Source of the DNA: Noviherbaspirillum denitrificans
Lineage (GTDB): Bacteria; Pseudomonadota; Gammaproteobacteria; Burkholderiales; Burkholderiaceae_D
Length of the DNA: 64,000 nt
Direction of reading: 5' to 3'
Assembly (NCBI RefSeq): GCF_002211445.1
Contig: NZ_LSTO01000001.1
Span: 2,880,829 to 2,944,828 of the forward strand
How positions within the stretch are numbered: the stretch's first letter is position 1; every line of letters begins with the position of its first letter. Below, piece by piece: positions 8,810-62,659 of the stretch. The notes beneath the pieces are model-generated. The model did no database searches. It had not been told where the DNA came from and saw only the letters and a program-made list of their open reading frames with translations. The translations under genes were made by a program, and so were the position numbers.

Positions 8810-9610
8810 ATGAGCACCGACCTGATCGAAGTGCGAATCCATGAAGGGATCGCCACTCTCCACCTGAACCGTCCCGAGAAGCGCAATGCCATGAGCGACG
8901 ACATGCGCACCCAATTCATTGCCGCGCTGGAGCGCATCGCTTCTGACCGGGAAATCCGCGCGCTCGTCCTGACCGGCAATGGAAAAGGCTTCTGCGCCGG
9001 CGGCGACGTGGCCGGCATGGAGCGCCGCATGCAGGCGCCGGCGGGAGAAGTGGGCTTCAACGGCTGGGCGCGCCAGCAGCGCGTCCATTACACGCAGTCC
9101 CTGCTGCACACGATGCCCAAGCCGACGATCGCCGCGGTCAACGGCGCCGCATCCGGACTTGGCGCTGACACCGCGCTGGCGTGCGACTTCATCATCGCCA
9201 GCAGCGAAGCAAGCTTTACCTGGTCCTACATCAACCGTGGCCTGATTCCGGACGGGGGCGGGATGTACTTCCTGCCGCGCCGCGTCGGCCTGGCGAAGGC
9301 GAAGGAACTGATTTTCAGCGGCCGCAAGGTGGAGGCCGAAGAGGCATTGCGCCTGGGGATCGCCGACCGCCTCAGCCAGGCGGAGACGCTACTCTCGGAC
9401 GCACAGGCCTGGGCGTCCGAGCTGAGCAAGGGATCGAGGACGGCGCTGGCGCTGGGCAAGGCCATCCTCAACCAGAGCTTTGAGCTGCCTGCCGAGCAAG
9501 TCTTCGCGCAAGGCAGCCAGGCGCAGGGCATCTGCTACACGAGCACGGAGCACCGGGAGGCCGTCATGGCTTTCCTCGAAAAGAGTGCTGCGCGTGCCAG
9601 CAAGGGGTAA
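8810..9610 (+). CDS. Enoyl-CoA hydratase/isomerase family protein
   Basis: This 266-residue crotonase-fold enzyme acts on CoA thioesters in the cytoplasm. HLNRPEKRNAMSDDM near residue 20 and GFCAGGDVAGM near 60 form the CoA-binding and first oxyanion-hole segments; IAAVNGAASGLGADTALACD (about 107-126) supplies the second oxyanion hole. In the region of the usual catalytic glutamates, the stretch ASFTWSYINRGLIPDGGGMYFLP has Asp in place of the second Glu. This hints at an isomerase, or a hydrolase-like member, as much as a hydratase. It lies 28 bases after the binding-protein gene and 5 bases before the synthetase gene, so it is part of the same operon. Confidence 0.88.
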   Translation: MSTDLIEVRIHEGIATLHLNRPEKRNAMSDDMRTQFIAALERIASDREIRALVLTGNGKGFCAGGDVAGMERRMQAPAGEVGFNGWARQQRVHYTQSLLHTMPKPTIAAVNGAASGLGADTALACDFIIASSEASFTWSYINRGLIPDGGGMYFLPRRVGLAKAKELIFSGRKVEAEEALRLGIADRLSQAETLLSDAQAWASELSKGSRTALALGKAILNQSFELPAEQVFAQGSQAQGICYTSTEHREAVMAFLEKSAARASKG

Positions 9611-9615
9611 TCGAC

Positions 9616-11703
9616 ATGACTGCCATTTCTCGCCTGATCAAGCCCCGAAGCGTTGCTGTCATCGGTGCTTCCGCCGACCTGAGCAAGACCGCGGGACGTC
9701 CTGTGTCCTACCTGCTCAAGCACGGATTTGCCGGCGACATCTATCCTGTCAATCCGCGCGCGGAAAACATTGCCGGCTTGCGCTGCTATCCGGACATTGG
9801 CTCGCTGCCTGGCGTTCCCGACGTGGGGATCGTTCTGCTGGGCGCCGAACGGGCCCACCTGGCCGTGCGTGAGCTTGCCGCACGCGGCACGGCAGCGGCC
9901 ATCGTCCTCGCCAGCGGTTATACCGAAACCGGCGACGAGGGCGCGCGGCGCCAGCAGGAACTGATCGAGGCCGCAGGGTCGATGCGGCTGCTCGGCCCGA
10001 ACACCATTGGACTGGTCAACCTGACCGACAACATCGTCCTGTCTGCGAGTGGCGCACTCGAGATGGATGACCTCCCGGTCGGTTCCATCGGCGTCGTCTC
10101 CCAGAGCGGCGGCATCCTTGGCGCCTTGCTGTCGCGGGCGGCGGCACGCGGCATCGGGCTGTCCAAGCTGATTTCGACCAGCAACGAGGTCGATCTGGAT
10201 CTGGCCGACTTCATCAGCGAACTCGCCGATGATGAAGCGACCAAGGTGATCGCGCTGTACATCGAAAGCGTGCGCAATCCGGCGACATTCCGCGCAGCCG
10301 CACTGAAAGCGGCAGCGGCCGATAAACCTGTTGTTGCCTTCAAGATCGGGCGCTCCGAAGCCGGTGCTCGCGCCGCCGTCTCGCACACCGGCGCCATGGC
10401 CGGCGCGGACAGCATGTACGACGCGTTGTTCAAGCAGGTTGGCATCGTGCGTGCGCAAACCTTCAGCGACCTGCTCGACATTCCGGCGGCGCTGGCATCG
10501 GGCCGTGTCCTGCGCGGCAATCGCGTCGCCATCCTCACCTCGACCGGGGGCGCCGGCACGCTGGTGTCGGACAGTCTTGGTGTCTCCGGCTTCGAAACGC
10601 CTGCACCGGATGCGGCCACTGCGCAGAGTCTGCGCGATCTGCAGACGGGCAGCCATGCCGCGCTCGACCGCAACCCCATCGACGTCACGCTGGCGGGCCT
10701 TCAACCGGACCTGCTGCGCGGCGCAATCAAGGCAATCCTCGCCAGCCCGAGTTACGACGCGCTGACAATCATCGTCGGTTCTTCCAGCCTTGCGATGCCT
10801 GATCTGATGGCTGGGGCAATCCAGGATTGCATGCCGCTGAGCGACAAGCCGATTCTCGCCTATGTCAGCCCGCACGCACCGGAAGTTGCGGCCCTGCTAA
10901 CGCGCCGTGGTGTGCCGGCATTCACGGCGCCGGAAAGCTGTACGGCCGCCCTGGACGGAATGCTCAAATCGGCCCACTGGAAACCGGCATCGGCAGGGAA
11001 GACGGATTCACCAACTGATGTACAAACTGCCGATTTCCTCGCGGGTTCGCTCGACGAGGCGCAGGCGAAAAAATTGTTCGCGCGCTTTGACGTACCGGGC
11101 GTGCGCGAGAAGGTCGTCACGACGCCGGAGCAGGCCGAGCAAGCCGCGCGAGAGCTGGGCGGCCGCGTCGTGTTGAAAATCCTTTCCTCGGAAATCACAC
11201 ACAAGAGCGATGTCGGTGGCGTTGCCGTCAATCTTACGGCGGAGCAGGTCGGAGAGCGCCTCGTCACGATGACCAGGGAGGTGCACGATAAGGCCGGCAC
11301 GACGCCGGAGCGTTTCCTCGTGCAGGAGATGGTGTCAGGCGGCACCGAACTGATCCTCGGCATGCATCGCGACGCGCTGGGAACGGCAATCATGCTTGGC
11401 ATGGGTGGTGTGACGGCGGAGCTGTTCAAGGATACGACACTGCGCCTGATCGGTGAAAACGGACTCAGCCGCGCAGAAGCGCTGGACATGGCGCGCGAAC
11501 TCAAGACCTGGCCCTTGCTTGATGGCTTTCGCGGTCGGCCCAAGGCCGATGTCGAGGCGCTGGTGTCGGCAATCGTGGCATTTTCGCGGATGGCGGCGAA
11601 GATGGGGGAGCGCCTCGTCGAAGCCGAAATCAATCCGGTCTTCGTCCTGCCTGAAGGTCAGGGCGTACGGGCGGCCGATGGCGTTGTAGTGCTCAAGGGC
11701 TGA
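9616..11703 (+). CDS. Acyl-CoA synthetase, NDP-forming (acetate-CoA ligase family)
   Basis: The protein has 695 residues. The N-terminal part is a CoA-binding Rossmann domain (SVAVIGASADLSKTAGRPV, about 13-31). Succinyl-CoA-ligase-like flavodoxin-fold domains follow, with GVVSQSGGILGALLSRAA (about 160-177) and VSHTGAMAGADSMYDALFKQ around the phospho-histidine. The C-terminal part is an ATP-grasp domain from about residue 475, with VVLKILSSEITHKSDVGGVA and the metal-binding end EAEINPVFVL. The enzyme activates a carboxylic acid to its CoA thioester through an acyl phosphate and a phosphohistidine. Its place directly after the hydratase suggests that it primes the acid for beta-oxidation-like steps. 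The acid is not identified. Confidence 0.9.
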   Translation: MTAISRLIKPRSVAVIGASADLSKTAGRPVSYLLKHGFAGDIYPVNPRAENIAGLRCYPDIGSLPGVPDVGIVLLGAERAHLAVRELAARGTAAAIVLASGYTETGDEGARRQQELIEAAGSMRLLGPNTIGLVNLTDNIVLSASGALEMDDLPVGSIGVVSQSGGILGALLSRAAARGIGLSKLISTSNEVDLDLADFISELADDEATKVIALYIESVRNPATFRAAALKAAAADKPVVAFKIGRSEAGARAAVSHTGAMAGADSMYDALFKQVGIVRAQTFSDLLDIPAALASGRVLRGNRVAILTSTGGAGTLVSDSLGVSGFETPAPDAATAQSLRDLQTGSHAALDRNPIDVTLAGLQPDLLRGAIKAILASPSYDALTIIVGSSSLAMPDLMAGAIQDCMPLSDKPILAYVSPHAPEVAALLTRRGVPAFTAPESCTAALDGMLKSAHWKPASAGKTDSPTDVQTADFLAGSLDEAQAKKLFARFDVPGVREKVVTTPEQAEQAARELGGRVVLKILSSEITHKSDVGGVAVNLTAEQVGERLVTMTREVHDKAGTTPERFLVQEMVSGGTELILGMHRDALGTAIMLGMGGVTAELFKDTTLRLIGENGLSRAEALDMARELKTWPLLDGFRGRPKADVEALVSAIVAFSRMAAKMGERLVEAEINPVFVLPEGQGVRAADGVVVLKG

Positions 11704-51220: not shown

Positions 51221-52424
51221 TCAAACCCGCTCGATCATTACCGCAATTCCCTGGCCGACGCCGATACACATCGTTCATAAGGCAAATCTGCCGCCTTTTC
51301 GCTGCATTTCAAAAGCAGCAGTCGTGACCAGGCGCGCTCCACTCATTCCTAAAGGGTGGTTAAGGGCAATTGCTCCACCATTCGGGTTGACGCGTGGATC
51401 GTCGTCCTGAAACCCGATTGAACGCAATACAGCCAGTGCTTGTGCAGCAAACGCTTCGTTTAGCTCGATTACATCGACCTGGTCGAAAACCATATCCAAC
51501 TTTGACAGCAGTTTGCGAGTGGGCGGCACAGGACCGATTCCCATTACACTAGGTGCAACACTGGTGGTGGCCATTCCGATCATTCGTGCCAAGGGCCTCA
51601 GGCTGTAGCGGATTGCGGAGTGCTCATTCGCCAGTAATAGCGCGCACGCACCATCATTCACGCCCGATGCATTGCCAGCAGTGACAGTGCCGTCCCGCGT
51701 GCACGACTCCCTTTAGCTTCGCGAGCGATTCCAACGAAGTCAGGCGAGGGTGCTCGTCCTGCATAAACACTAACGGGTCTCACTTTCGTTGCGGAACGGA
51801 CACAGCCGTAATCTTCTCTTCCAGCGCGCAGCCCGCTTGTGCAGAGGCAGCCTTCACCTGGCTGCGCATAGCAAGCCTGTCCTGATCCTCGCGGCTGATG
51901 GCGAACTTCCGGGCGACATTTTCCGCAGTTTCCAGCATGGAGTCTGTTCCATACATGGCCTGCATTACCGGGTTGATGAAGCGCCATCCGATTGTGGTGT
52001 CCTGAAGAAATGCGCTGCGAGAGAATGCGCTGTCGGCCTTGCCCATGACGAATGGGGAGCGCGTCATCGATTCCACTCCGCCCGCAATCATTAGATTTGC
52101 CTCTCCGGATTTGATTGCACGCGCCGGTGTGCTGACGGTATCGAGTCCTGAACCACACAGTCGATTGATGGTCGAGCCGCTAGTCTTTTCTGGAAGATCG
52201 GCGAGGAGTAGTGACATGCGTGCGACGTTGCGGTTGTCGTCGCCCGCTCGGTTCGCACATCCGAAGACGACATCGTCGACAGCATTCCAGTCGACGTCTG
52301 CGTTGCGTTGCATGAGTGCGTGCAGCGGTACGGCGCCGGGATCGTCGGCACGCACATCTTTAAGCGCGCCGCCATAACGTCCGACCGGCGTACGGATTGC
52401 ATCGCAAATGTAGGCACTGTTCAT
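51221..52424 (-). pseudogene. pcaF: Decayed beta-ketoadipyl-CoA thiolase
   Basis: The 5' part (from the ATG at 52424) reads [20 protein letters not shown] and keeps Cys90 in [11 protein letters not shown]; the 3' part keeps [24 protein letters not shown] and [14 protein letters not shown]. At least three lesions break it. A TGA at 51780-51782 stands where a Gly codon (GGA) is expected, after VPQRK. A one-base insertion lies near 51694-51700. A TGA at 51275-51277 replaces the Cys codon of the L-C-T-M-C motif, 19 codons before the natural end (ERV, stop at 51221). Aligned with the intact thiolase at 14.7 kb, the frames join without gaps. It follows the pcaJ remnant and was probably the end of a pcaIJF operon. 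Confidence 0.9.
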
Positions 52425-52486
52425 TGCAGATTCCTGCCGGCTCCGGTGTAATTTGCATACGCAAGAAATTTGAACGCTTGCTTCAC

Positions 52487-52815
52487 TCATCTAGGTCGCA
52501 GCGGCGCGGCGGTCATGCGTTGCAATTCTTGAAATGAAAACACGGACACGATCTCGCGCACTGCGAGATCATCTCCAATGACATCGATGACGGCAAGGTC
52601 AGTGTAGATGCGGCCGACGTATCGAACGCCGGTGAGAAGGTCACAGCAATTCTCGACAATCTTGCTTTCGCCGGTCCGGGTCCGGTGTTCGATCATCACA
52701 AATATTTGTTTGGTGCGGCCGCCAGATCCATTCCCCAGCCTAAAGCAGGAATCGTGTCCTGCGCTCCTGCATGCCAAATGGCGGTGTCACAGTGTCCCGA
52801 AATCGCAGCGATTCC
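52487..52815 (-). pseudogene. pcaJ: Remnant of 3-oxoadipate CoA-transferase subunit B
   Basis: The 3' third of a PcaJ-type CoA-transferase is recognisable. One frame reads GHCDTAIWHAGAQDTIPALG and WGMDLAAAPNK; after a frameshift near 52705-52715 the next frame reads QIFVMIEHRTRTGESKIVE, then GRIYTDLAVIDVIGDDL and the ending FQELQRMTAAPLRP. These follow PcaJ order (WHTGAPDAIPAVGGAMDLA, FVMMEH, RIYTDLAV), with about 15 residues missing between the first two blocks. The first 100 or so codons, including the catalytic-glutamate region, are gone. It lies 62 bases upstream of the decayed pcaF. Confidence 0.82.
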
Positions 52816-52861: not shown

Positions 52862-54220
52862 TCAAGCCTGGACTTCTTCTCCCGGATTGACGACTGCCCG
52901 GGAAGATTCGCGGCGCTCGCCGGCACTGAGGCAGGCTGCCGCCAAGGCAGCAATAAAAATTGGAATTGCCCCGATCAGGAAGATCTGGAATGCGTTCATG
53001 TTCAGCGAGATCAGCACACCACTGATCAGGGAACTGACCAGCGAGCCTACGCGGCCTACGCCCAATGCCCAGCCAACGCCGGTGGAGCGGATCATGGTCG
53101 GATATGCCATTGCGGCAAGTGCATTGGTGCCGACTTGCGCCCCGACAGAGCAAAATCCGGCGGCGAACGAACAGGCCGCCAGCAAGGGCAGGGACGACTG
53201 GCTAATGAGGCCAAGTGCGCCGACGAAAACGGCGGCGGCAACGTAGACAGCGGCGATGATGACATAGGGGCGCCGCGTATCGATGAAGCGTCCAAGCACA
53301 AGTGTGCCAATGGTACCGCCGACCGGAAACAACGAGGTGATCAGCACCGATTTTTCAAGCGGGATGCCCAGCCCGTTGAAGACGGTGGGCATCCAGTTGG
53401 AAATAAAGAAGATTTCGAAAAGGCTCATGAAGAACATCACCCACAGCAGCAGCGTCATGACCGCGCGGCCGTTCTTGAACAACTGGGCGACGGGGAAGCC
53501 GCTCGGGTTTTCTTCATGAACGGCGAAGCGAGTGTCCATGTCATAACGGACGCTTGAATCGATCCGCGCCAGGAGCGCACGGACGTCGCCGTCGCGCTTT
53601 CCGCGGACGACCAGGTAGCGGAGCGACTCGGGCAGCGAAACCGTCAGCCAGAGTACCAGCAGGAGCGGCAGCGTGCCGCCGACAATGAATACCGAATGCC
53701 AGCCGTATTCCCTGATCAGGTGGGCCGCCAGTACGCCGCCGATTGCGCCGCCAAGGGAAAAGCCGCAGAACATCGTCATGACGACCGTGGCACGGATGCG
53801 GGATGGAGCGTATTCCGAGGTCAGGGAAATTGCGTTCGGCATGGCCCCCCCAAGTCCGAGACCGGTCATGAATCGAAACAGGATGAGCATCGACAGATTT
53901 GAGCTCATGATCGTCAATAGCGAAAAGACGCCGAACATCGCAGTGGATGCGACAAGTACCGGCTTTCGCCCGAAGCGATCCGCCGCCGGGCCGAAGATCA
54001 AGGCGCCGATCATCAAACCCAGCAGCCCGGATGCGAAAACCGGTCCGAGCGCGGCCTTGGTCACCCCCCATTCCTTCATGATGAACGGGGCGACGTAGCC
54101 GATGGCAAGCGTATCGAATCCATCGAGCAGAACGATGAGTCCGCAAAGGACAAAGGTCTGGATTTGGAACCTGCCCAGCTTCCTGTTTTCAATAAAGTGC
54201 TGAATATTTTCGGTGTTCAT
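52862..54220 (-). CDS. MFS transporter, aromatic acid:H+ symporter (AAHS) family
   Basis: The 452-residue protein has 12 hydrophobic segments and the AAHS signatures FVLCGLIVLLDGFDTLAIGY in the first helix (with the conserved D-G-F-D), GPAADRFGRKPVLVAS in the loop between helices 2 and 3, and a second-half repeat GRFIDTRRPYVIIAA. It would import an aromatic acid such as 4-hydroxybenzoate, protocatechuate or a relative with protons. GGAGACC precedes the ATG at 54220, which overlaps the stop of the upstream lactonase-like gene by 4 bases. It is the last intact gene of the long minus-strand catabolic operon. Confidence 0.92.
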   Translation of the reverse strand: MNTENIQHFIENRKLGRFQIQTFVLCGLIVLLDGFDTLAIGYVAPFIMKEWGVTKAALGPVFASGLLGLMIGALIFGPAADRFGRKPVLVASTAMFGVFSLLTIMSSNLSMLILFRFMTGLGLGGAMPNAISLTSEYAPSRIRATVVMTMFCGFSLGGAIGGVLAAHLIREYGWHSVFIVGGTLPLLLVLWLTVSLPESLRYLVVRGKRDGDVRALLARIDSSVRYDMDTRFAVHEENPSGFPVAQLFKNGRAVMTLLLWVMFFMSLFEIFFISNWMPTVFNGLGIPLEKSVLITSLFPVGGTIGTLVLGRFIDTRRPYVIIAAVYVAAAVFVGALGLISQSSLPLLAACSFAAGFCSVGAQVGTNALAAMAYPTMIRSTGVGWALGVGRVGSLVSSLISGVLISLNMNAFQIFLIGAIPIFIAALAAACLSAGERRESSRAVVNPGEEVQA

Positions 54221-55125
54221 TGTTGGTCTCCATTTTGTTTTGTTTCCGCTGCGGCTTGCAGCCGGAATAGCGGTTCCGCGATACCTTTTGCGTCGACCTT
54301 GATGGCCAGGACGCTCCCGGATAATTCCTGCGTGCGCAGCTGCTCCTCGCTCAATCGCCGTCTCGCCGTCGTGACAAAGAGGACGTCGAGATCGGGCCCG
54401 CCGAGGGTGCAGGAAGTAGGCCGGGTAACCGGCAAGGAAATCTGTGCGTCGCACGAACCGTCCGGCAGGAAGCGCAGGATGCGGCCACCGTCGATATTGG
54501 CGCACCACACCCGCCCTTGGCTGTCGACTGTCGCGCCATCCGGAAATCCCCGCCCATCCGGTATGCGCGCAAACGGCCGTCGACCCCCGACCCTGCCGGT
54601 ATGCGCATCGAAATCGAAAACTTCGATCAGGCCGGTTGGCGAATCGGCGAAATACATCCGGGCGCCATCCGGGCTCCAGCACAGGGCATTTGGAATGGTC
54701 AATCCGCCAAGAACATGTTCAGTCGCTCCCGATCCGTCCAGCCGCCAGAGGTTGCCAACCGGCGCATACCCGGTCTCCCGCAACGATCCTGACCAGAATC
54801 GGCCATGCCGGTCGACCTTGCCATCGTTCAGGCGGTTGTCCGGGAAGTCGCGCTCGGGCGCCGCCAGTTGCGTGCGCGCGGCGCTGGCCGGGTCGAAGAA
54901 GTGAAAGCCCGAACGCGCGGCGACGACAAGACCGCCACTGCAAAGGCCAACGGCACCCACTTCTTCGCCGAATTGCCACGTTGACGTTTCCTTGTCTGTC
55001 CAGCCACGCCGGTGGATCGTGCCAGCAATGCTGTCAACCCAATACAGTGCCTGTTCCGATACCGACCAGAGCGGAGATTCGCCCAGGATGGCCGCGCCGC
55101 CGGCAAATTGCATGACTTTGCTCAT
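54217..55125 (-). CDS. SMP-30/gluconolactonase-like lactonase
   Basis: The 302-residue protein has the six-bladed beta-propeller pattern of SMP-30/luciferin-regenerating enzymes. The metal ligands are visible as Glu in GESPLWSVSEQALYWVD, Asn in IPNALCWSPDGARMYFAD and Asp in FPDGATVDSQGRVWCAN. RLNDGKVDRHGRFWSGSL is another family segment. Such enzymes hydrolyse lactones of sugar or organic acids; in an aromatic pathway a muconolactone-like or enol-lactone intermediate is possible, which is inference. It is translationally coupled to the AAHS transporter gene and lies 18 bases after the OYE-type gene. Confidence 0.88.
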   Translation of the reverse strand: MSKVMQFAGGAAILGESPLWSVSEQALYWVDSIAGTIHRRGWTDKETSTWQFGEEVGAVGLCSGGLVVAARSGFHFFDPASAARTQLAAPERDFPDNRLNDGKVDRHGRFWSGSLRETGYAPVGNLWRLDGSGATEHVLGGLTIPNALCWSPDGARMYFADSPTGLIEVFDFDAHTGRVGGRRPFARIPDGRGFPDGATVDSQGRVWCANIDGGRILRFLPDGSCDAQISLPVTRPTSCTLGGPDLDVLFVTTARRRLSEEQLRTQELSGSVLAIKVDAKGIAEPLFRLQAAAETKQNGDQQ

Positions 55126-55143
55126 CGCTTCAGGTCCGTTGGC

Positions 55144-56331
55144 CTAATCCGAGGTCGAGTTGGCTGCGGAGCCGACCAATTTGCTCCTCTCTGAAATACG
55201 CCACAGACCTTGCAAGGCTTCCGCCTTTTCCCGTGTTTCGGCAAACTTCAGGTCCGGTCCCAGCGCCGGATGGCAATTCACATAGCGCTTCGGATAGTCG
55301 AGATGCACGCCAAGCTTGGCTGCCGCATGCCATGCCCATCTCGGGTTGTACAGCATGCCGCGTGCAAGCGCGATCAGGTCTGCCTTGCCGTCCTGGAGGA
55401 TCGCTTCGGCCTGCTCGGCTTCGGTGATTTGTCCCACTGCCATCGTCGGGATGCCGCCTTCGTGCCGGATACGCTCGGCGAACGGAACCTGGTAGCCGGG
55501 GCCGTGGACGATTTTCTGCTTCATTGACGAACCGCCGCTGGTCGCACACACGTAGTCACAGCCGCGGGCCTGCAATTCCTTTGCGATGGCTACCGAATCA
55601 TCCAGGTCCCATCCGCCATCGACCCAATCGACGGCCGATATGCGGACGCCCATGGGCTTGTGCTTCGGCCAAAGCGCGCGGCACTCGTCAAAAATTTCCA
55701 GCGCGAGACGGAAGCGCTTCATGCGGTCGCCGCCATACGCGTCCTGCCGCAAGTTGGTCAGCGGCGAAAGGAATTGGTTGACCAGGTAGCCGTGCGCGAA
55801 ATGGAATTCGATCAGATCAAAGCCAACTCGATCCGCACGAATGGTGGCATCCCGCCAGGCCGCTTTGATTCGGTCAATACCTGCCTGGTCCAGCTCCCTT
55901 GGCAGCGAATGGACGCCGTCCTCTATCACTGAGGGCGCGTCCGGTTGCCACCATCCCTCTTCCTCGGTCAGCGGGCGGCGTACCATCCACGACGGGGTCA
56001 CCGCACCTTTTCGGCCCGCATGCGCGAGCTGGATACCCAGCTTTGCCTTGCCGTAGCGGCGGCCGAATTCGACTACGCGCGCCAGCGCGCGCTCATTGTC
56101 ATCCGAATACAGTCCCAGGCAACGGTTGGAAATGCGTCCCTGCGGTTCGACCGCAGTCGCTTCGGCAATGACGAGCCCCGCGCCGGAAACGGCGAGATTC
56201 CCCAGGTGCATGATGTGCCAGTCCGAGGCGTTGCCATTTTCTGCAGCGTACTGGCACATTGGCGCCACAACAATACGGTTTTCAAGCGTTAGCTCACGCA
56301 TTGTGTAGGGCGTAAATAGATGTGATTTCAC
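55144..56331 (-). CDS. NADH:flavin oxidoreductase, Old Yellow Enzyme family (YqjM/XenA type)
   Basis: The 395-residue cytoplasmic FMN enzyme reduces activated C=C bonds. It has RIVVAPMCQYAAENGNASDW with the redox-modulating Cys26 of the YqjM/XenA class, QLAHAGRKGA, and the substrate-binding His pair in FHFAHGYLVNQFLSPLTN. VGQITEAEQAEAIL and DLIALARGMLYNPRW near the end also fit. A GTG start at 56331 is chosen because AAGGAGA lies at ideal distance; upstream in-frame sequence is not family-like. The gene sits 13 bases after the thioesterase gene in the operon and could saturate an enoate formed in the pathway. Confidence 0.9.
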   Translation of the reverse strand: MKSHLFTPYTMRELTLENRIVVAPMCQYAAENGNASDWHIMHLGNLAVSGAGLVIAEATAVEPQGRISNRCLGLYSDDNERALARVVEFGRRYGKAKLGIQLAHAGRKGAVTPSWMVRRPLTEEEGWWQPDAPSVIEDGVHSLPRELDQAGIDRIKAAWRDATIRADRVGFDLIEFHFAHGYLVNQFLSPLTNLRQDAYGGDRMKRFRLALEIFDECRALWPKHKPMGVRISAVDWVDGGWDLDDSVAIAKELQARGCDYVCATSGGSSMKQKIVHGPGYQVPFAERIRHEGGIPTMAVGQITEAEQAEAILQDGKADLIALARGMLYNPRWAWHAAAKLGVHLDYPKRYVNCHPALGPDLKFAETREKAEALQGLWRISERSKLVGSAANSTSD

Positions 56332-56344
56332 AAAAGTCTCCTTG

Positions 56345-56830
56345 CTATTTATTAAATTCGGGCGTCGAACAAGACGCTCGGTGTTCTTCAATCCTTCTTC
56401 GCAACCAGTCGGGAACGGGAATGGCCCGGCGCGCTTCGGCTGCGATGCAGACAGACGTGATTCCGGCATCGAACACCGGTGTCCCGTCGACGAGGCTCCC
56501 ATGCATCGAAAAGCTTACGGTCGAATCTCCCACGGCGCTAACGCTTGCCCTGATATCAAACAATTCGCCAGGCCACAGGGCCCGGTGGAGGGCCAGCGAC
56601 AACGCCTTGGTCGGCATTGCGCAATGCAGATCTCCCTCTGCCGGTGCATGCCACGGACGCCCGAAGAGTTCGCTCCTGAACGCGTCCAACGCATGATGTA
56701 CATAGAGCGAAAAGTTGCCGGCGAAGACGACGCCCGCGGGATCGCACTCGGCCCAGCGAGCGCGACGCCGAATCACGAATGGCGTGCGGGACAGGACGAT
56801 ATCGCCGCTTACGGCGGCATCGCAGTCCAT
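56345..56830 (-). CDS. Acyl-CoA thioesterase, 4-hydroxybenzoyl-CoA thioesterase family
   Basis: The 161-residue hot-dog protein has RRRARWAECDPAGVVFAGNF, the nearly exact signature of 4HBT class I enzymes with the catalytic Asp30, followed by the helix YVHHALDAFRSELFG. It would release a free acid from an aryl- or acyl-CoA, pairing with the EntE-like ligase upstream. The start is not certain: the ATG at 56830 has GAGG nearby, and a GTG at 56845 overlaps the stop of the 84-residue gene (GTGA). Either choice leaves the domain intact. Confidence 0.85.
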   Translation of the reverse strand: MDCDAAVSGDIVLSRTPFVIRRRARWAECDPAGVVFAGNFSLYVHHALDAFRSELFGRPWHAPAEGDLHCAMPTKALSLALHRALWPGELFDIRASVSAVGDSTVSFSMHGSLVDGTPVFDAGITSVCIAAEARRAIPVPDWLRRRIEEHRASCSTPEFNK

Positions 56831-56841
56831 TGCGGCCTCGT

Positions 56842-57096
56842 TCACAAATCGTCTCGCTCGATGCGCAATTGCTCGCGATCGAAGCGAGTGATCTTGCCGG
56901 CCAGGCCTCCCGTGAGACTGCCGTACCAAATGGCCGGTTTGAAGCCGAGCTCCTTGCGCGAAAACTCCAGGACATCGTCACTGGAAATCTTAAAATAATT
57001 CCGGCCATGTTCGGTAACGACGCATGCAGGTTTTTTGCGCGCCACCTCGACCAGCGCAATAAATTCAGGAACATTCAGGACATAAATATGCGGCAT
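56842..57096 (-). CDS. 84-residue protein of unknown function
   Basis: The product starts MPHIYVLNVPEFIALVEVAR, and its second half reads GFKPAIWYGSLTGGLAGKIT, then RFDREQLRI. A good AGGGGAGCG site precedes the ATG. It lies 10 bases after the ligase-VOC gene and is followed directly by the thioesterase gene, so it is a true operon member. I do not recognise the family. Alternating hydrophobic strands and its size suggest a small alpha/beta subunit or accessory protein; no cysteine motif or metal site is evident. Confidence 0.7.
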   Translation of the reverse strand: MPHIYVLNVPEFIALVEVARKKPACVVTEHGRNYFKISSDDVLEFSRKELGFKPAIWYGSLTGGLAGKITRFDREQLRIERDDL

Positions 57097-57106
57097 ATCG
57101 CTCCCC

Positions 57107-59455
57107 TTATTGCGGCTTCGCAAGAAGGTCGCTCTTCATGCGCCAGACAGTATCGATATCCGCGAGCGCGCGGCGTTCCCTGGCGGCTTCTCCATCGGCA
57201 GCCATCGCGGCTTCGACAGTCAGACGTGCATCTTCCTTGTCGCGCGCATCGAACTCCCGCAGCTGCACAGTGATCTCGATGGGATAGCCGTTCGGATCTG
57301 CAAAATAGATGGATTCAATGACTTCATGCCGCGTGAGCGGGGAGACTTCCACACCCCTGGCTTCGAGCATCGCTTTCCACCGCTCCAGTTCTTCCCGCGT
57401 ATTCACTCGCCACGCTGTATGCGTTCCCCGATAGAAGAATTCGTCGGTGCGAGGTGTCAGGTAGTCGGGGCGCTCGGTCCCGATGTAATAGAAAAAGGCG
57501 ATCGTGCTGCCGTTTCCGCTGTCGAAGAAGAAGTGCACAAAATCGGGATGGCCTTCGCGCCCCCAACCTTTAGCAGAAATGGCGTGAATGAGCGGCAATC
57601 CAAGTACGTCACGGTAAAAGCGTACCGTTTCCTGCAGCTTCCAGGTTGGGCGCGCAGTATGGTGCACGCCATCCAGGAATGGCATTGGAGGAGTGTGTGA
57701 TGGTGCGATATTCATGGTCATCTCCGATGTAGGGTTTTCCGGGTTCATCCCGCGTGCCAGGAGCAATCGTTCGGCATGGACCAGTTCCTTGATCCTTTCG
57801 CGGAGCAAGGGCTTGCTGACCTTTCCCGACTTCGTCGTCGGCAGCGAGGGCAGGAGCTCGATTCGCTCCGGCCATTTGTACTTGGCGAGGCCATGCCTTT
57901 CCAGGTGTTTGCCGAAGGACGCAAGCGTCGGCGCGGATTGGCCGCTTTCCATGCACACAAAAGCGCAACCGCGTTCGATGTAGACGTCGTCGGGCATGGC
58001 GACGATTGCTACGTCGACCAGGCCTGGATAATCGCGCAGCGCGCGTTCAACTTCGTCACAATTGATTTTTTCTCCACCGCGATTGATGACGTCCTTGATT
58101 CGCCCCTCGAACACGAAGTACTGGCGGTCCCCGAAGCTGCGGAGCGATAGCAGGTCTCCCGTCCGGTAGAAGCCGTCTCTGGTGAAGGCTTCGCGGTTGC
58201 GCTCCGACGCGTTGTAATAACCGGACAAGGTATATGGTCCCTTGCACACCAGTTCGCCGACTTCGCCGGGAGCAACCTGTTCTTCTGTTCCCGGTCTATA
58301 TAGCCTGACCTCGTCAAATGGCGAAACCGGCGTTCCCACGCTTTGGAAGATCGCCTCTTCGCCGTCGCTCTTCCGGGTTGACATGATCAATCCCTCGGCC
58401 ATGCCGAAGAAGTGAAAGCCGGGCATGCCCAGTTCCTGGCTGACGAACTGCGCGTGGGAAGAACTGATTACGGCGCGGACATAGGAAAGATCCATTGGCG
58501 CCTGCTTCAACGCCTCCTTCAGTCTTACCAGCACTGGCCGCATCAGGAACAGCCATGTCGGCCGGAACTTCTTGAACGTGTTCCTCAGACCTTCCGGCGA
58601 AAGGTCACGGTCTGTTACCAGGGAGCCGCCATGCAGAAGCGCCGGTCCCCAATGACATACCATCCCGGCGTTGTGCACCAGCGGACCCGCGCAGAATACG
58701 GTCTCGTCGCGCGAGCGTCCGCTCCACGCGAAGACTGCGCGCATGTTGTACAAGTACTCGTTCTGCATGCGCGGAATGATTTTCGGCACCCCGGTTGTGC
58801 CTCCCGAGAGCTGGAAAACGGCGACCTGGAAGGGATCAAGCCGAGCCACGGTATTTGCAACCTGCGCTTTTGCTTCGTCCGGGTCACTCGTGGCGATCAA
58901 TTCATCAAGATTGGGGACGCCGTCGCGGGCCGGTCCGCGTCCGACGACAATGTGCTTGAGCGAGGGATGCTGTTGGCGGAGTCCCTGCGCAAAAGCGACG
59001 AAGTCGAACCTGGGATGATCACCATCGACGAAGATGGCGCGCGCCCTGGCATGCCCGGCCAGGTAACCCATTTCGGCCTCCCGGTGACTGACCAGCGTAC
59101 ATACGGGAATCAGGCCTGCCTTTAGGCATGCAAGCATGCATATGATCAGCTCTGAACTGTTCGCCATCTGGAACAGTACCCGGTCCAATGGTTCCAATCC
59201 CAACTTCATCAGCGTTGCCGCGGCACGATCACTCAAACTGTCGAGCTCCCGGTAGCTCAAGTCGCCGGCACTGCTGCGCAGGGCAACGCGGCCGGCATTG
59301 TTCTTGAAGGATTGCATCAGCGCGCCGATCAAGGTTTCGCTCGTCAGGATTCCGGCTTCAATGTAGCGCTTCAAATCCTCCTTATCCGGATAGACAACGC
59401 CATCGAGCGGTTGCGTGACGCCGATTGCATTAACTGGGACGATGTCGTGATTCAC
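57107..59455 (-). CDS. EntE-like aryl acid-AMP/CoA ligase fused to a VOC (glyoxalase/dioxygenase) domain
   Basis: The 782-residue protein has an adenylating domain (about 1-560). FQLSGGTTGVPKIIPRMQNE is the P-loop-like core, close to 2,3-dihydroxybenzoate-AMP ligase; FFGMAEGLIMSTRKS, YRTGDLLSLRSFGDRQYFV, GRIKDVINRGGEKINCDEVE and PTTKSGKVSKPLLRERI (catalytic Lys) follow. A linker of about 30 residues leads to a VOC domain (about 595-725). There, DGVHHTARPTWKLQETVRFY, FVHFFFDSGNG, GTHTAWRV and YPIEITVQLRE supply a His-His-Glu metal set. The join is in frame, with no stop. A GTG start at 59455 has AGGAGA upstream; the ATG at 59476 has none. The substrate is probably an aromatic acid. Confidence 0.85.
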   Translation of the reverse strand: MNHDIVPVNAIGVTQPLDGVVYPDKEDLKRYIEAGILTSETLIGALMQSFKNNAGRVALRSSAGDLSYRELDSLSDRAAATLMKLGLEPLDRVLFQMANSSELIICMLACLKAGLIPVCTLVSHREAEMGYLAGHARARAIFVDGDHPRFDFVAFAQGLRQQHPSLKHIVVGRGPARDGVPNLDELIATSDPDEAKAQVANTVARLDPFQVAVFQLSGGTTGVPKIIPRMQNEYLYNMRAVFAWSGRSRDETVFCAGPLVHNAGMVCHWGPALLHGGSLVTDRDLSPEGLRNTFKKFRPTWLFLMRPVLVRLKEALKQAPMDLSYVRAVISSSHAQFVSQELGMPGFHFFGMAEGLIMSTRKSDGEEAIFQSVGTPVSPFDEVRLYRPGTEEQVAPGEVGELVCKGPYTLSGYYNASERNREAFTRDGFYRTGDLLSLRSFGDRQYFVFEGRIKDVINRGGEKINCDEVERALRDYPGLVDVAIVAMPDDVYIERGCAFVCMESGQSAPTLASFGKHLERHGLAKYKWPERIELLPSLPTTKSGKVSKPLLRERIKELVHAERLLLARGMNPENPTSEMTMNIAPSHTPPMPFLDGVHHTARPTWKLQETVRFYRDVLGLPLIHAISAKGWGREGHPDFVHFFFDSGNGSTIAFFYYIGTERPDYLTPRTDEFFYRGTHTAWRVNTREELERWKAMLEARGVEVSPLTRHEVIESIYFADPNGYPIEITVQLREFDARDKEDARLTVEAAMAADGEAARERRALADIDTVWRMKSDLLAKPQ

Positions 59456-59476
59456 TTTTGCTTGTCTCCTGGTCAT

Positions 59477-60727
59477 TCAAAAATTCTTCTCTGCGAGCCA
59501 GTCTCGTATGCACGCGCCGGCTTGCTCCTGGCCATTCGGCCCACCGGGGGAGATCGGTCCGCCCTGGTGATTGCCCGGGATGCGATGGCGCGTCTTGTCC
59601 GGCGTACCGATCAAGTCGAACAGTCGTTGTGCCTCGGAAGGGAACACGCTGTTGTCTCCTGTGTATTCGATCATCAACGTAGGGACATTGACGGATGGCG
59701 CGCACTTTTCCATGGTCGCGTTTGACGAAAACGCAGACCAGTTCGACAGCCAGCTTTCGGGGGTGCAAAGCCTTGCAAAGCCGACTGCGCCAAAATTGGA
59801 AACCATCGGATTGGCGCCCCAGAGGCTGCCGTAGACACGGTCCGAGGGCTCGAGGGACAAGTCGAAGCAGCGGGGATCGGCATCCGTGCGCCATACCTCC
59901 AGTACAGGGGTATGTGCCGCTAGCGCAGCGTCCGCGGTACTGAAGTCGCGTGAGAGGCGCTTTTTTGCTGCCGCTTTGCGTGCGATGAATTCCAGGGCCA
60001 TGCTGTCAATCCGCAATACGCGGGCGCGCTGCGCGCTGCGGTAGCGCTCCAGGAAAGTCGAATCGTATTGCGCGCTGTGCGGCGGCGGCGCAAATCCGTT
60101 TCGCGGATTGAAAATCGAAAGGCTTTCATCGGTTTTCAGCGGATCGCATTCATCAATAACGGATGGATCGATGCAGTTCAGCAGCAATGGACCTTGGCCA
60201 AGATGCGATGAAACGAGCATCAGTCCATCGGGCAGGGGCAGGTTCGCCTCGTCCAGGCCGGTCCGGCGGCCCGCAGGGCTGGTCGCGATTCGCTTCGATC
60301 CCGGCAATTGAGCCTGCTGGATGTAATAGGCCGCCAGCGGCCCGCCACCCGAGGTTCCGAGCAACACACTGCAACGGTATCCCTTTTCCCGCAGAAAGCG
60401 CTGGCCCGCCGCCAGGTCGAGGACAGCCTTTTCATGCTCGAGACGCAGGTCGTTGCCGGCCGTGCGCGAACCCATGACCCACATTGCGCGTCCGCCTTGA
60501 AGAATTTCAGGCACCAGATATTGCGTCACCAGCATTTCTCGCGGATGCATCGCGCAAACCACGGTCTGCTCTCCGCCGCGATAAAACAGGAAGCCCGTAA
60601 CCATTGCACCGTCGTCAGTCTTTAGGGATGTGGGCAAGACCTTTACTCCGTCGGGCAGGCGGCCTTCCTTCCAGTGTGCGCCGCGCAGGCCTGCGGTAGT
60701 CGTGGCGATTGCTGAAGTTGTGCGCAC
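59477..60727 (-). CDS. Alpha/beta hydrolase family protein
   Basis: The 416-residue protein is long for the fold. It has TVVCAMHPREMLVTQYLVPE as the oxyanion-loop region, the nucleophile elbow VLLGTSGGGPLAAYYIQQ with Ser in GTSGG, an acid in LMIEYTGDNSVFPSEAQRLF and the catalytic His in HRIPGNHQGGPISPGG. A large insert (about 190-290) forms a lid. It resembles hydrolases of aromatic or C-C bond pathways, but no subgroup is certain. A GTG start at 60727 is preceded by GGGAGG, which lies in the end of the maleate isomerase gene. It stands 21 bases before the ligase-VOC gene. Confidence 0.8.
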   Translation of the reverse strand: MRTTSAIATTTAGLRGAHWKEGRLPDGVKVLPTSLKTDDGAMVTGFLFYRGGEQTVVCAMHPREMLVTQYLVPEILQGGRAMWVMGSRTAGNDLRLEHEKAVLDLAAGQRFLREKGYRCSVLLGTSGGGPLAAYYIQQAQLPGSKRIATSPAGRRTGLDEANLPLPDGLMLVSSHLGQGPLLLNCIDPSVIDECDPLKTDESLSIFNPRNGFAPPPHSAQYDSTFLERYRSAQRARVLRIDSMALEFIARKAAAKKRLSRDFSTADAALAAHTPVLEVWRTDADPRCFDLSLEPSDRVYGSLWGANPMVSNFGAVGFARLCTPESWLSNWSAFSSNATMEKCAPSVNVPTLMIEYTGDNSVFPSEAQRLFDLIGTPDKTRHRIPGNHQGGPISPGGPNGQEQAGACIRDWLAEKNF

Positions 60728-60730
60728 GGC

Positions 60731-61516
60731 CTACCTCCCGGCCTGCGGTGCACGGGCACTGGCGAAGCGTTCGCTCAGGAGGGCGCCGGCGCCGGGCACA
60801 ACCGGTTCCAATCCAAGGTTTTCGAGGAGACGGCGGGTGGTGCAAACGGCCGACGATGTCACCGGTAGTCCCAGTTTGTCCTCGACCGCCTGGATTGCCG
60901 GCAGCGACGGCATCTGCACGCAGGCGGAGAGCACGACTGCGTCCGCGTTTTCGATGTTCAGTCGTGCCACATCGTCGACCAGGCGCATCGGATCGCGCCG
61001 GCCGACTTCGAGGTTGTCGGGAATTTCGAATGCGATTGCATCAATCACGTCGATACCCTCGCTCTCGATGTACTTGACCACAAGATCTGTTAGTGGCCGC
61101 ATATACGGTGTGACAATCGATACGCGTTTGGCGCCCAGGATTCGCAGGCCGTCAATCAATGCGCCGGCCGAGGTGACGACAGGGGCGGCACACAGGTTGT
61201 CCCGCGCCACCTGGGTCAGGCGGCGCTCGCTTTCCCTGTGGTAGCCTGTTCCCATCGACATGATGGCAACAAGGCAGGCATAGCCCATTACGTCCACGCG
61301 CGCGTCTGCAAGTTCAGCAGCGCAACGCAAGCTGTCGGCGTCCATGCGTGCGAGCTCCTCCTTCGTTACCCGATGCATGCGCATTCGGCTGGAGTGGAAG
61401 GTGAACTTCTCCGGCCGCACTGCCATGCGCGATTGCAACATTGCAGGGATCTCCGTTTCCATTGTGGTGTTCGAACTGGGTACGATCTGGCCGATTCGAA
61501 AAGTGGTTTTAGTCAT
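60731..61516 (-). CDS. maiA: Maleate cis-trans isomerase
   Basis: The 261-residue cytoplasmic enzyme converts maleate to fumarate without cofactor. It matches nicotinate-pathway NicE and related isomerases: QIVPSSNTTMETEIPAML at the start, FHSSRMRMHRVTKEELARMD, Cys81 in VMGYACLVAIMSMGTGYH and Cys199 in VVLSACVQMPSLPAI. These are the two catalytic cysteines of the Asp/Glu racemase fold. VTSAGALIDGLRILGAKR is also typical. I choose the ATG at 61516, just before family similarity; two earlier in-frame ATGs arise from a 21-bp tandem duplication that also copies the ribosome binding site. It is the first gene of the catabolic operon and feeds fumarate to the TCA cycle. Confidence 0.9.
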   Translation of the reverse strand: MTKTTFRIGQIVPSSNTTMETEIPAMLQSRMAVRPEKFTFHSSRMRMHRVTKEELARMDADSLRCAAELADARVDVMGYACLVAIMSMGTGYHRESERRLTQVARDNLCAAPVVTSAGALIDGLRILGAKRVSIVTPYMRPLTDLVVKYIESEGIDVIDAIAFEIPDNLEVGRRDPMRLVDDVARLNIENADAVVLSACVQMPSLPAIQAVEDKLGLPVTSSAVCTTRRLLENLGLEPVVPGAGALLSERFASARAPQAGR

Positions 61517-61558
61517 GCTCTTTCCTCTTGCTGTCATGCTCTTTCCTCTTGCTGTCAT
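61517..61558 (-). repeat. Tandem 21-bp duplication of the maiA ribosome binding site and start
   Basis: Two identical 21-bp units (ATGACAGCAAGAGGA followed by AAGAGC) abut the true start of the maleate isomerase gene. Each contains an AGAGGA ribosome binding site followed by an in-frame ATG, so up to three starts are possible at 61558, 61537 and 61516. The encoded extension would be MTARGKS repeated twice. Confidence 0.85.
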
Positions 61559-61735
61559 GCTGTTGAGACGGTGCCTGCATCCGTTAGTCGACAATGTAGG
61601 CCTTGCGGGAAGGGAGGCGTTAATACCGTTTTTTTATCGCGCCAGAGAAAAGTCTGATTCGAGTCCCGGGTTCAGCAGCGCTATACTCGGGCGACCGCCC
61701 GTTGGCGGCGAAGATTGGCAGTAGGGAGAGAGGGA

Positions 61736-62659
61736 ATGGACCTGCGACAGATGCGGTATTTCGAGGCAATCGTGCGGCACAAGAGCTTTACCCAGGCCGC
61801 ATTGAAACTGTATGTCGCCCAGCCGGCGCTGGGCTTCCAAATCCGCAAGCTGGAAGAAGAGCTGGGAATCCAGCTGCTCATCCGGAACACGCGCGGCGTG
61901 GAACCGACGGAGGCCGGCCTCCTGTTCCTGGAACGCGCGCGGAAGATCCTGGACGAAGTCGACCAGACCAGGAAGGTCCTGCTCGACCATGCGGGGCCGG
62001 TGCGCGGGCACATTTCTATCGGCATTACGCCGACGATTGCGAGTGTTCTGGCGCTGCCGCTGCTCCAGCGTTGCCGCCAAGAATTGCCGGAAGTCTCGAT
62101 CAACCTTGTGGAAGACCTGGGCAGCGTGCTGACCGAATGGCTGCAGCTGGACCGCCTGGACATGGCACTAGCCTTTTCCGTCCCGCCGACGCTCGGGCTC
62201 ACGGCAAAGACCCTGGTGGAGGACCGGGCCTTCTTTATCTACAAACCGGAACAGGGGCTGCGCACAAGCCGAAGCATTGCATTCGAGGAGATTGTTTGCC
62301 AGCCGCTGATCCTGCCAAGCGCACCCAACCGCCTCAGGCAATTCCTTGAGGAGACGGCCAAGGCAAGGAAGCTCGATCTGAACGTGGCACTGGAAGTGCA
62401 ATCGCCTTCCACCATTTTGAAGCTGGTCGAAGAGGGATTCGGGGCGACGGTCATGTCAATCGTCGCGGTAAGGCCGCTCATCGAAAAGCGGCGCTTGTCT
62501 GCGCGCCCAATCGTGGAACCGGAAGTGTCGTATCCGCTATCCCTCGTCCGATCCGATTCCAATCCGCTATCGAAGGCAGAGGCGGCCCTGCAGCAGATCA
62601 TTGAGGAATTGGTGCAAAAGACGATTGTGGAGGCAGGGGCGGACGCCCCTGCCGGTTGA
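61736..62659 (+). CDS. LysR-family transcriptional regulator
   Basis: The 307-residue protein has the LysR helix-turn-helix at its start (MDLRQMRYFEAIVRHKSFTQ, AALKLYVAQPALGFQIRKLE) and a co-inducer-binding domain (about 90-295). It resembles the NAC/CynR-like group with GHISIGITPTIASVLALPLL. It is divergent from maiA with a 219-base gap, the classic arrangement for a pathway regulator that senses a substrate or intermediate. GGGAGAGAGGGA precedes the ATG at 61736. The 3' end includes a strong hairpin shared with the convergent porin gene. Confidence 0.92.
   Translation: MDLRQMRYFEAIVRHKSFTQAALKLYVAQPALGFQIRKLEEELGIQLLIRNTRGVEPTEAGLLFLERARKILDEVDQTRKVLLDHAGPVRGHISIGITPTIASVLALPLLQRCRQELPEVSINLVEDLGSVLTEWLQLDRLDMALAFSVPPTLGLTAKTLVEDRAFFIYKPEQGLRTSRSIAFEEIVCQPLILPSAPNRLRQFLEETAKARKLDLNVALEVQSPSTILKLVEEGFGATVMSIVAVRPLIEKRRLSARPIVEPEVSYPLSLVRSDSNPLSKAEAALQQIIEELVQKTIVEAGADAPAG
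62632..62653. terminator. Hairpin between the LysR and porin genes
   Basis: A perfect 10-bp stem (GGCAGGGGCG paired with CGCCCCTGCC) with a 2-base loop covers the last codons of the LysR gene and ends 8 bases before the end of the convergent porin gene. It is a likely bidirectional terminator although no long T run follows. Confidence 0.6.

Follow-up and report, generated by a model that had tools for sequence, protein, structure and literature searches.

A putative gentisate-type aromatic-acid operon with a ligase-VOC fusion and a maleate isomerase gene in Noviherbaspirillum denitrificans

An operon of eight genes at positions 52862-61516 of the window (the entire 64,000-nucleotide stretch of N. 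denitrificans DNA that was analyzed) appears, on balance, to serve the catabolism of an aromatic acid by a gentisate-type route with non-standard enzymes, in which a VOC domain and an 84-residue protein (P84) would open the ring and an alpha/beta hydrolase would cut the product to maleate and a C3 unit. From the observed gene content, co-conservation, fusions, conserved residues and family and fold relationships, we infer each reaction and substrate, the order of the steps, and whether or not the ring is opened as a CoA ester. The AAHS transporter would bring in an ortho-hydroxy aryl acid, which the ligase domain would convert to an acyl-AMP or acyl-CoA. In relatives, a flavin monooxygenase resembling salicylyl-CoA 5-hydroxylase would supply the para-hydroxyl group; its gene is missing from the window, so the acid is probably a para-diphenol already or is made so otherwise, perhaps by the OYE-type oxidoreductase. 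The VOC domain and its partner P84 are predicted to cleave the ring beside the activated carboxyl, much as homogentisate and gentisate dioxygenases do, and the resulting maleyl 1,3-diketone would be split by the hydrolase into maleate and a pyruvate-like C3 unit. Release of CoA by the 4HBT thioesterase might precede or follow cleavage, and maleate would go on to fumarate through the isomerase.

Operon organization

All eight ORFs lie on the minus strand, intact and without interruptions. Starting from the ATG at 61516, they encode a maleate cis-trans isomerase of the MaiA/NicE type (60731..61516), an alpha/beta hydrolase of 416 aa (59477..60727), a fusion of an aryl-acid ligase (residues ~34-567) with a VOC dioxygenase-like domain (residues ~601-742; 57107..59476), P84 (56842..57096), a 4HBT_2 acyl-CoA thioesterase (56345..56830; PF13279, 31.8 bits with a cut-off of 25.5), an OYE-type flavin oxidoreductase (55144..56331), an SMP-30/gluconolactonase-like lactonase (SGL; 54217..55125; PF08450, E 1.1e-79) and an aromatic acid:H+ symporter of the AAHS/PcaK type (52862..54220). 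The symporter matched TIGR00895 at E 1.3e-119 with 399.7 bits, slightly short of the cut-off of 418.55. Intergenic gaps, calculated from the assigned starts, were 3, 0, 10, 11, 13 and 18 nt, followed by a 4-nt overlap of the SGL and AAHS genes. A LysR-type regulator is encoded divergently on the plus strand (61715..62659), its likelier start being the ATG at 61736. The tightly packed arrangement opposite a LysR gene that the first-pass annotation described was thus borne out. Broken thiolase-like frames were also seen close to the operon.

Conservation of the gene set

Gene content was compared across 44 other VOC loci, namely L009, L011-L046 without L040 (where no VOC was found), L055, L056, L065, L077-L080 and L082, the window itself being excluded. 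L010 was omitted because it overlaps L009 on the same contig. Also omitted were L047-L049 (weak matches), L081, L085, five VOC matches at 41-43% (three of which, L066-L068, were inspected and have no P84) and L057, whose hydrolase homolog (36%, E 6e-41) has neighbors foreign to the gene set. Most loci came from a ligase-VOC query, which inflates the counts of these two genes; the hydrolase led to L055, L056, L077-L080 and L082, and six of the 50 plasmid records in which it had a match were examined. Since locus length varies and several loci end at contig ends, absences are to be read as lower bounds. Our gene caller overlooked P84 and the alpha/beta hydrolase of L017, P84 of L046, the isomerase of L077 and the hydrolase of L082, which were seen by ORF scan or in the record annotation.

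Seven other proteobacterial loci (L055, L056, L065, L077, L078, L079, L080) carry all six core enzymes together with P84, that is, ligase, VOC, P84, alpha/beta hydrolase, 4HBT thioesterase, maleate isomerase and a salicylyl-CoA 5-hydroxylase-type flavin monooxygenase; for L077 the isomerase was assigned from a weak family match, like that of the window's own enzyme, together with the record label "Asp/Glu racemase." Named carriers are Cupriavidus metallidurans CH34, Caballeronia sp. NK8, Variovorax paradoxus VAI-C and Tistrella mobilis. Clusters of the genes for ligase, VOC, P84 and hydrolase occur in actinobacteria too. Counting against our reading, 12 loci from Streptomyces and its allies combine VOC and P84 with a different flavin hydroxylase and no alpha/beta hydrolase, and a 4HBT homolog, which occurred in 8 of the 44 loci, all proteobacterial, was not detected in the rest of the table.

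The remaining genes of the window operon are outside the conserved core. Neither the OYE nor the lactonase has a homolog in any of the 44 loci, and an AAHS transporter scored above 200 bits in one, with two weaker matches at 108 and 120 bits; at the Caballeronia NK8 locus, a gene similar to the window AAHS scored 336 bits. A flavin monooxygenase homolog is encoded at 25 of the 44 loci. Conserved co-occurrence of the eight genes, which the first-pass annotation named as a check, was seen for the core and did not extend to the OYE, lactonase and transporter; nor does "eight-gene pathway" describe the unit well, given that these three are not core and that a frequent member, the monooxygenase, is missing in the window.

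The ligase-VOC fusion and P84

The ligase domain resembles DHB/salicylate-AMP ligases (5wm2, "Salicylate-AMP ligase," E 1.8e-95) and is, at the family level only, an aryl-acid AMP/CoA ligase as found in the CoA-dependent salicylate branch. It shares its sequence family (5wm2, 1md9) and a His-Asn motif with the aryl-acid adenylating enzymes EntE, DhbE and CahJ, but differs from them in being fused to a VOC domain within an apparent catabolic operon. The His-Asn of hydroxy-aryl ligases was kept in all 29 ligase rows. At two pocket positions that presumably set specificity, the window ligase has Cys and Ile, as does PchD and nearly as does 5wm2, whereas 1md9 and 6e8o have Ser and Val. Judged by these residues, the pocket is of the salicylate type; on the other side, 5kei, a chain labeled DHB ligase that we take to be a salicylate enzyme, likewise has Cys and Leu at these positions. 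Salicylate was rejected as a settled substrate because the pocket Cys varies among relatives, being found in just 12 of the 29 ligases.

The VOC domain retains the 2-His-1-Glu metal site of type I extradiol dioxygenases together with the second-sphere His and Tyr (window residues H606, H686, H717, Y724 and E734, whose roles we assume to be those in extradiol enzymes). Among 40 aligned rows, the first metal His was present in 39, the exception being an incomplete row, and the second His, the Glu and the second-sphere His and Tyr in all 40. The best solved sequence match of the family was 9u42, titled "Homogentisate 1,2-Dioxygenase from Acinetobacter" (profile E 3.2e-22); it was the best match for the L014 protein and the A4 profile, rather than for the window domain alone. 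This chain also ranked first by Foldseek E-value (1.3e-9), with a weak superposition (26% identity, TM 0.24/0.40, rmsd 17.8), and was not among the best 50 matches of the structural aligner. Like the window domain it is a single VOC domain; it differs as a 182-residue chain with neither a P84 part nor a ligase fusion, and its homogentisate activity is taken here from the entry title and molecule name. A VOC paralog in the N. denitrificans genome (41% identity) matched 9u42 at 2e-40 and adjoins an FAA hydrolase gene.

The VOC domain might instead work on an acyl-CoA or some other intermediate as an isomerase, an epimerase or a transferase, the ring being cleaved elsewhere. Among the best 50 matches of the structural aligner, methylmalonyl-CoA epimerases (Z 11.4-11.9) were level with BphC-type dioxygenases, and the profile search placed 1zsw and the FosB transferases ahead of the extradiol enzymes HsaC and MhqO. 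That search, however, was topped by 9u42 and contained no epimerase at E<=0.01, the extradiol His, His and Glu and second-sphere His and Tyr are conserved, and no other ring-cleaving gene was recognized in the operon. We regard a non-oxygenase function as quite improbable. The suggestion of the first-pass annotation that the VOC domain opens an activated aryl acid is still the best reading of the conserved extradiol-type residues and the 9u42 match.

P84 had no Pfam or NCBIfam match at E 1e-3. A homolog lies beside or is fused with VOC in 41 of the 44 other loci, and an ORF scan found it adjoining VOC in two of the remaining three (L017 and L046). VOC::P84 fusions occur in 8 of the 44 loci, and ligase::VOC is the fusion in the window. 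We therefore propose, from this association, that P84 is a partner subunit of the VOC enzyme. When the fold of the modeled protein was compared with solved structures, the best 50 matches were occupied by VOC domains; alignment A4 was used for the model, and A1, A3 and A5 were set aside as their P84 rows were misplaced. It is conceivable, though we hold this only tentatively, that the ligase::VOC fusion passes the acyl-AMP or acyl-CoA directly to a dioxygenase with P84 as its small subunit, so that a gentisate-like ring is opened as the CoA thioester. Such CoA-dependent para-diphenol cleavage to maleate would extend from Burkholderiales to actinobacteria, and VOC plus P84 would form a new two-part class of dioxygenase.

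Maleate isomerase and alpha/beta hydrolase

The isomerase matched the solved chains 4fq7 (E 7.9e-96) and 2xec (E 3.1e-62), and both Cys motifs (GYACLV and SACVQMPS) are in place, giving the two catalytic cysteines of maleate cis-trans isomerases; chains 4fq5_B and 2xed have Ala instead of the Cys of the second motif. It was the sole match of its kind in the genome at E<=1e-3. Identification as an arylmalonate decarboxylase or EutA was rejected, since the NCBIfam scores (91.1 of 318 and 73.5 of 225 bits) are far below cut-off and the match to 4fq7 is much the better one.

For the hydrolase, the single Pfam match was under its cut-off. In alignment A2 (21 rows, numbered by its first row), S126 within GxSGG, D358 and H387 are invariant, and the AF2 model (pLDDT 89.4) has an alpha/beta-hydrolase fold. 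Attempts to name the enzyme were abandoned: by sequence, the best PDB profile match reached E 0.05, and by fold, the best 50 of 1733 matches, with TM to target of 0.41-0.67, comprised only generic alpha/beta hydrolases. Its conserved residues and fold make it a candidate C-C (maleyl-ketone) hydrolase, that is, a candidate for the maleylpyruvate-hydrolase step. The first-pass annotation had set the operon apart from the gentisate route on the ground that this step was missing; with such a candidate present, and with 9u42 titled as a homogentisate dioxygenase of gentisate-like chemistry, that distinction is unsupported. Counting against our reading, one of the four strong non-own hydrolase matches (G427) has none of the other operon genes nearby.

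The hydrolase might alternatively act on an amide or lactam. The substrate would then be an aryl acid that is N-heterocyclic or amino-substituted (hydroxypicolinate or anthranilate type), and maleate would arise as in the nicotinate route, where NicD acts on N-formylmaleamate. The monooxygenase family seen in relatives includes anthraniloyl-CoA monooxygenase, which fits this idea, as do amidase and nitrilase genes nearby in Variovorax VAI-C and a distant homolog of the hydrolase that, in Rhodococcus opacus, adjoins a cupin gene and has two cysteine hydrolases nearby. HyuA-like lactamase genes occur at 12 of the 44 loci, although these are 11 actinobacterial loci and the Labilithrix MAG L045, with no match in the table's 10 proteobacterial loci; the sole pair tested, from L016, was most like caprolactamase and below cut-off. 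The hydroxy-aryl His-Asn in all 29 ligase rows and the lack of any amidase label within the operons of two annotated proteobacterial records also argue against a nitrogenous substrate, which we consider unlikely.

Comparison with known pathways

The sdgABCD genes of Streptomyces sp. WA46 specify a CoA-dependent gentisate route of salicylate, and gentisate routes of this type use an FAH-type hydrolase. The operon resembles that system in its EntE-like ligase, in the salicylyl-CoA 5-hydroxylase-like monooxygenase of its relatives and in the proposed para-diphenol opening to maleyl products. It differs in that cleavage would be due to VOC and P84 rather than the usual cupin gentisate dioxygenase, and in having an alpha/beta hydrolase and an in-operon maleate isomerase and no monooxygenase. 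With the nicotinate (nic) pathway the operon shares an isomerase of the same family and cysteine motifs as NicE, which we take to be the maleate isomerase of that pathway. The remaining nic set comprises a dihydroxypyridine dioxygenase, a deformylase and a maleamate amidase, none of which was recognized within the window operon.

In the three annotated VOC loci examined, the operon is not labeled as a known pathway, in keeping with its treatment as unassigned by the first-pass annotation. Their records carry generic labels only (in Tistrella, "hypothetical protein," "VOC family protein" and "Asp/Glu racemase"), and a literature search, judged by titles and abstract openings at the top of longer lists, yielded no account of this operon. 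The gene name sdgC occurs in PMC13215587. If correct, our reading would add to aerobic aromatic catabolism a maleate-forming branch that is unnamed in the records examined, assign a role to a small protein family (P84) and provide a naturally fused ligase and dioxygenase in which substrate hand-over could be studied.

Hydroxylation and integrity of the pathway

The flavin monooxygenase (salicylyl-CoA 5-hydroxylase) is not encoded in the window operon, and two genome searches found none. Against NF006101, the bifunctional salicylyl-CoA 5-hydroxylase/oxidoreductase, the genome gave eight matches, every one beginning at position 388 or later and hence with no monooxygenase half; the L065 monooxygenase as query, in a search without a positive control, had no match in the genome. 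Monooxygenases of relatives matched the N-terminal part of NF006101 in all five cases tested (256-388 bits; cut-off 1078), one extending to position 458. The window OYE resembles the C-terminal half (403.8 bits, below the same cut-off) and covers only positions 394-751, so that it does not combine both halves in one protein. With no hydroxylation partner in the genome, the window version cannot be a complete salicylate route as drawn. In the genome, which is 97.9% complete, nothing matched the cupin gentisate 1,2-dioxygenase (TIGR02272) at E<=1e-3, and control genomes all scored below cut-off. The genome carries hmgA as two pieces, far apart.

The missing monooxygenase half is also what would be expected had the window operon lost its original pathway, with ligase, OYE, lactonase and transporter now serving another substrate and maleate formation being a side branch or relic. 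The confinement of the OYE and SGL genes to the window among the loci compared, the broken thiolase-like frames and the split hmgA point the same way. We give this explanation little credence, since all eight frames are intact and tightly spaced, and key residues are retained in the isomerase, hydrolase, VOC domain and ligase.

Organization of the operon

Eight unbroken genes were found on the minus strand from position 61516 down to 52862 using the ORF list and refined starts. In order, they encode a maleate isomerase, an alpha/beta hydrolase, a ligase-VOC fusion, an 84-residue protein (P84), a 4HBT thioesterase, an OYE-type protein, an SMP-30/SGL lactonase and an AAHS transporter. Intergenic gaps measured 3, 0, 10, 11, 13 and 18 nt, followed by a 4-nt overlap, and a LysR gene (61715-62659, plus strand) diverges from the operon. 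The tight eight-gene arrangement opposite LysR described in the first-pass annotation was therefore recovered intact, and its domain assignments fell into the same families here.

The identity of the maleate isomerase is secure (E 7.9e-96 to 4fq7, with both cysteine motifs retained), and it was the sole match of its kind found in the window's genome. Chains 4fq5_B and 2xed have Ala in the second motif, presumably a catalytic residue mutated for study. Directly upstream of the isomerase start, a short tandem repeat (61516-61594; 21-nt unit) iterates a Shine-Dalgarno-like stretch and ATG, and reads MTARGKSMTARGKS in a longer frame. On the minus strand at 51275-52490, adjoining frames that are jointly thiolase-like, and that we take to be a thiolase, lie in different reading frames, so that the gene appears broken.

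Conservation of the gene set

Scanning genomes for matches to the ligase-VOC protein yielded 41 loci. Among the 44 other loci with this VOC subfamily, P84 adjoined or was fused to VOC in 41, the alpha/beta hydrolase was present in 28, a ligase (>200 bits) in 26, a salicylyl-CoA-5-hydroxylase-type monooxygenase in 25, the isomerase in 17 and 4HBT in 8; an ORF scan and record annotation show a few more genes beyond these counts. Most of the loci were retrieved by searching with the ligase-VOC protein itself, so independent support comes from the P84, hydrolase, isomerase and monooxygenase genes that accompany it. The full set of P84 and six enzymes (ligase, monooxygenase, thioesterase, VOC, hydrolase, isomerase) occurred in seven proteobacterial loci, namely two congeners (L055, L056), another Burkholderiales genome (L065), Tistrella mobilis pTM1 (L077), Cupriavidus metallidurans CH34 (L078), Caballeronia sp. 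NK8 (L079) and Variovorax paradoxus VAI-C (L080). Co-occurrence in other genomes, which the first-pass annotation had proposed checking, thus holds for the core made up of P84 and these six enzymes.

This conserved gene unit is rare. Counting the window's genome each time, 3 out of 399 genomes from the order had a hydrolase match at E<=1e-60, as did 1 out of 369 from the class; within the family, a match at E<=1e-3 occurred in 5 out of 294, three of them strong. Three of the four strong matches outside the window's genome lay within the operon (genomes G006, G009 and G495) and one did not (G427); a weaker match (G052, 36%) was also outside it.

In the window, the core is complete except for the monooxygenase. 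Monooxygenases of five relatives matched the N-terminal part of NF006101, the bifunctional salicylyl-CoA 5-hydroxylase/oxidoreductase family, at 256-388 bits, below cut-off, with the L011 match extending to position 458. The window's OYE matched the C-terminal half, also below cut-off. The eight NF006101 matches in the window's genome all fell in this OYE half and left the monooxygenase half unmatched; a search there for the L065 monooxygenase, which had no positive control, also gave no match. OYE and lactonase homologs were found in none of the 44 other loci, and AAHS (>200 bits) in one. With no such monooxygenase found in this genome, and no OYE or lactonase homolog found in the other loci compared, the window's operon reads as a variant form that may act on an acid already at the para-diphenol stage, e.g., gentisate or a derivative. 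Cupin gentisate dioxygenase gave no match in the window's genome, in a search where control genomes matched only below cut-off.

Predicted chemistry of the VOC domain

Of 40 aligned VOC rows, 39-40 retain the two metal-binding histidines and the glutamate (H606, H686, E734 in the window) as well as His717 and Tyr724 of the second sphere, and a stretch of the domain fits what we take to be the extradiol signature PROSITE PS00082. The best solved sequence match was 9u42, entitled 'Homogentisate 1,2-Dioxygenase from Acinetobacter' (E 5.9e-12 with the L014 protein; 3.2e-22 with the profile). A VOC paralog in the window's genome (L086), 41% identical to the window's domain, matches 9u42 at 2e-40 and adjoins an FAA hydrolase gene, the expected neighbor of a homogentisate dioxygenase. 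Taken together, the residues, the 9u42 matches and the paralog's setting favor cleavage of a para-diphenol to a maleyl ketone as the likeliest predicted chemistry, which fits a maleate end product.

A Foldseek search with the predicted L014 VOC::P84 model (pLDDT 88.2, pTM 0.85) also ranked 9u42 at the top by E-value (1.3e-9), but the two structures superposed poorly (TM 0.24/0.40, rmsd 17.8). A slower structural aligner scored methylmalonyl-CoA epimerases and BphC-type dioxygenases alike (Z 11-12) and 2,6-dichloro-p-hydroquinone dioxygenase (4huz) at 9.8; 9u42 was absent from the best 50 matches listed. Fold alone is therefore undecisive. In the profile search, 9u42 was followed by 1zsw and two FosB chains, then by HsaC (2zi8) and MhqO (3oaj). 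The poor superposition and the FosB chains preceding the extradiol enzymes strengthen the alternative that the domain is an isomerase, epimerase or transferase rather than an oxygenase, and weaken the gentisate-type reading; we nevertheless consider a non-oxygenase unlikely. On balance, we lean toward the operon being a variant of a gentisate-type pathway with replaced enzymes of predicted function, in preference to the wholly separate route to maleate suggested initially.

In the window's genome (G000), hmgA (TIGR01015, the cupin homogentisate dioxygenase) is in pieces, while the VOC-type homolog and FAA hydrolase sit elsewhere. Its two partial matches, to model positions 2-241 and 290-429 (L088, G000:C1:2463661-2464374, plus strand; L089, G000:C1:2175973-2176389, minus strand), are ~288 kb apart on opposite strands, as if split by rearrangement or an assembly join.

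Ligase, hydrolase and P84

Alignment with solved relatives gave the window ligase an aryl pocket of HNAGMVC and GLI. Chains labeled as salicylate ligases have HNFALAC/GLL (5wm2) and HNFTLCC/GLI (7tyb, PchD); those labeled as 2,3-dihydroxybenzoate ligases have HNYPLSS/GLV (1md9), HNFPMSS/GLV (6e8o) and HNFPLAC/GLL (5kei, presumably a mycobacterial salicylate enzyme). Since His-Asn is constant (29/29 ligases) and the pocket Cys occurs in 12 of 29, the relatives' ligases probably take related but different acids.

The hydrolase has an alpha/beta-hydrolase fold, and in its family alignment (21 rows) a Ser, an Asp and a His are invariant and so placed that they could form a catalytic triad. P84 has a conserved YVLDVPE-like start, with Arg and Trp further on, and gave no match in family searches; because it accompanies VOC so regularly, it may be a structural or substrate-binding subunit. 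On Rhodococcus opacus pRop44186_a (L081), a distant hydrolase homolog (31.5%) is flanked by a cupin protein and a cysteine hydrolase, and a flavin monooxygenase follows; the locus may represent a related route of ring opening.

Gene fusions and the wider VOC-P84 family

The window's fusion joins ligase and VOC; VOC::P84 is a single protein in 8 of the 44 loci (L014, L045, L055, L056, L065, L078, L079, L080). In Variovorax sp. JS1663 (L009), separate ligase (8983-10686) and VOC (10683-11303) genes overlap by four bases, making origin of the window's fusion through stop loss plausible. The window's linker contains GGAG six bases ahead of an in-frame ATG, from which VOC might also be produced alone. 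L009 holds two half-clusters 6.5 kb apart, hydrolase-ligase-VOC-monooxygenase and monooxygenase-hydrolase-ligase-P84, the first containing VOC and the second P84.

The VOC-P84 pair reaches past the proposed maleate-forming pathway, since 12 loci of Streptomyces and allies combine it with a different flavin hydroxylase and lack the alpha/beta hydrolase. These loci (L026-L037; Streptomyces, Kitasatospora, Frankia, Winogradskya) carry VOC, P84 and flavin hydroxylase as a conserved set beside a ligase, and most also hold what we take from sequence to be a DAHP synthase and an O-methyltransferase; the pair possibly has a biosynthetic use there. HyuA-like genes occurred at 12 of the 44 loci (11 actinobacterial, plus the Labilithrix MAG L045), with HyuA/HyuB-type pairs (caprolactamase/acetophenone-carboxylase-like) at L011, L012, L016, L018, L045 and seven more; the L016 pair, the only one tested, was most similar to caprolactamase, below cut-off.
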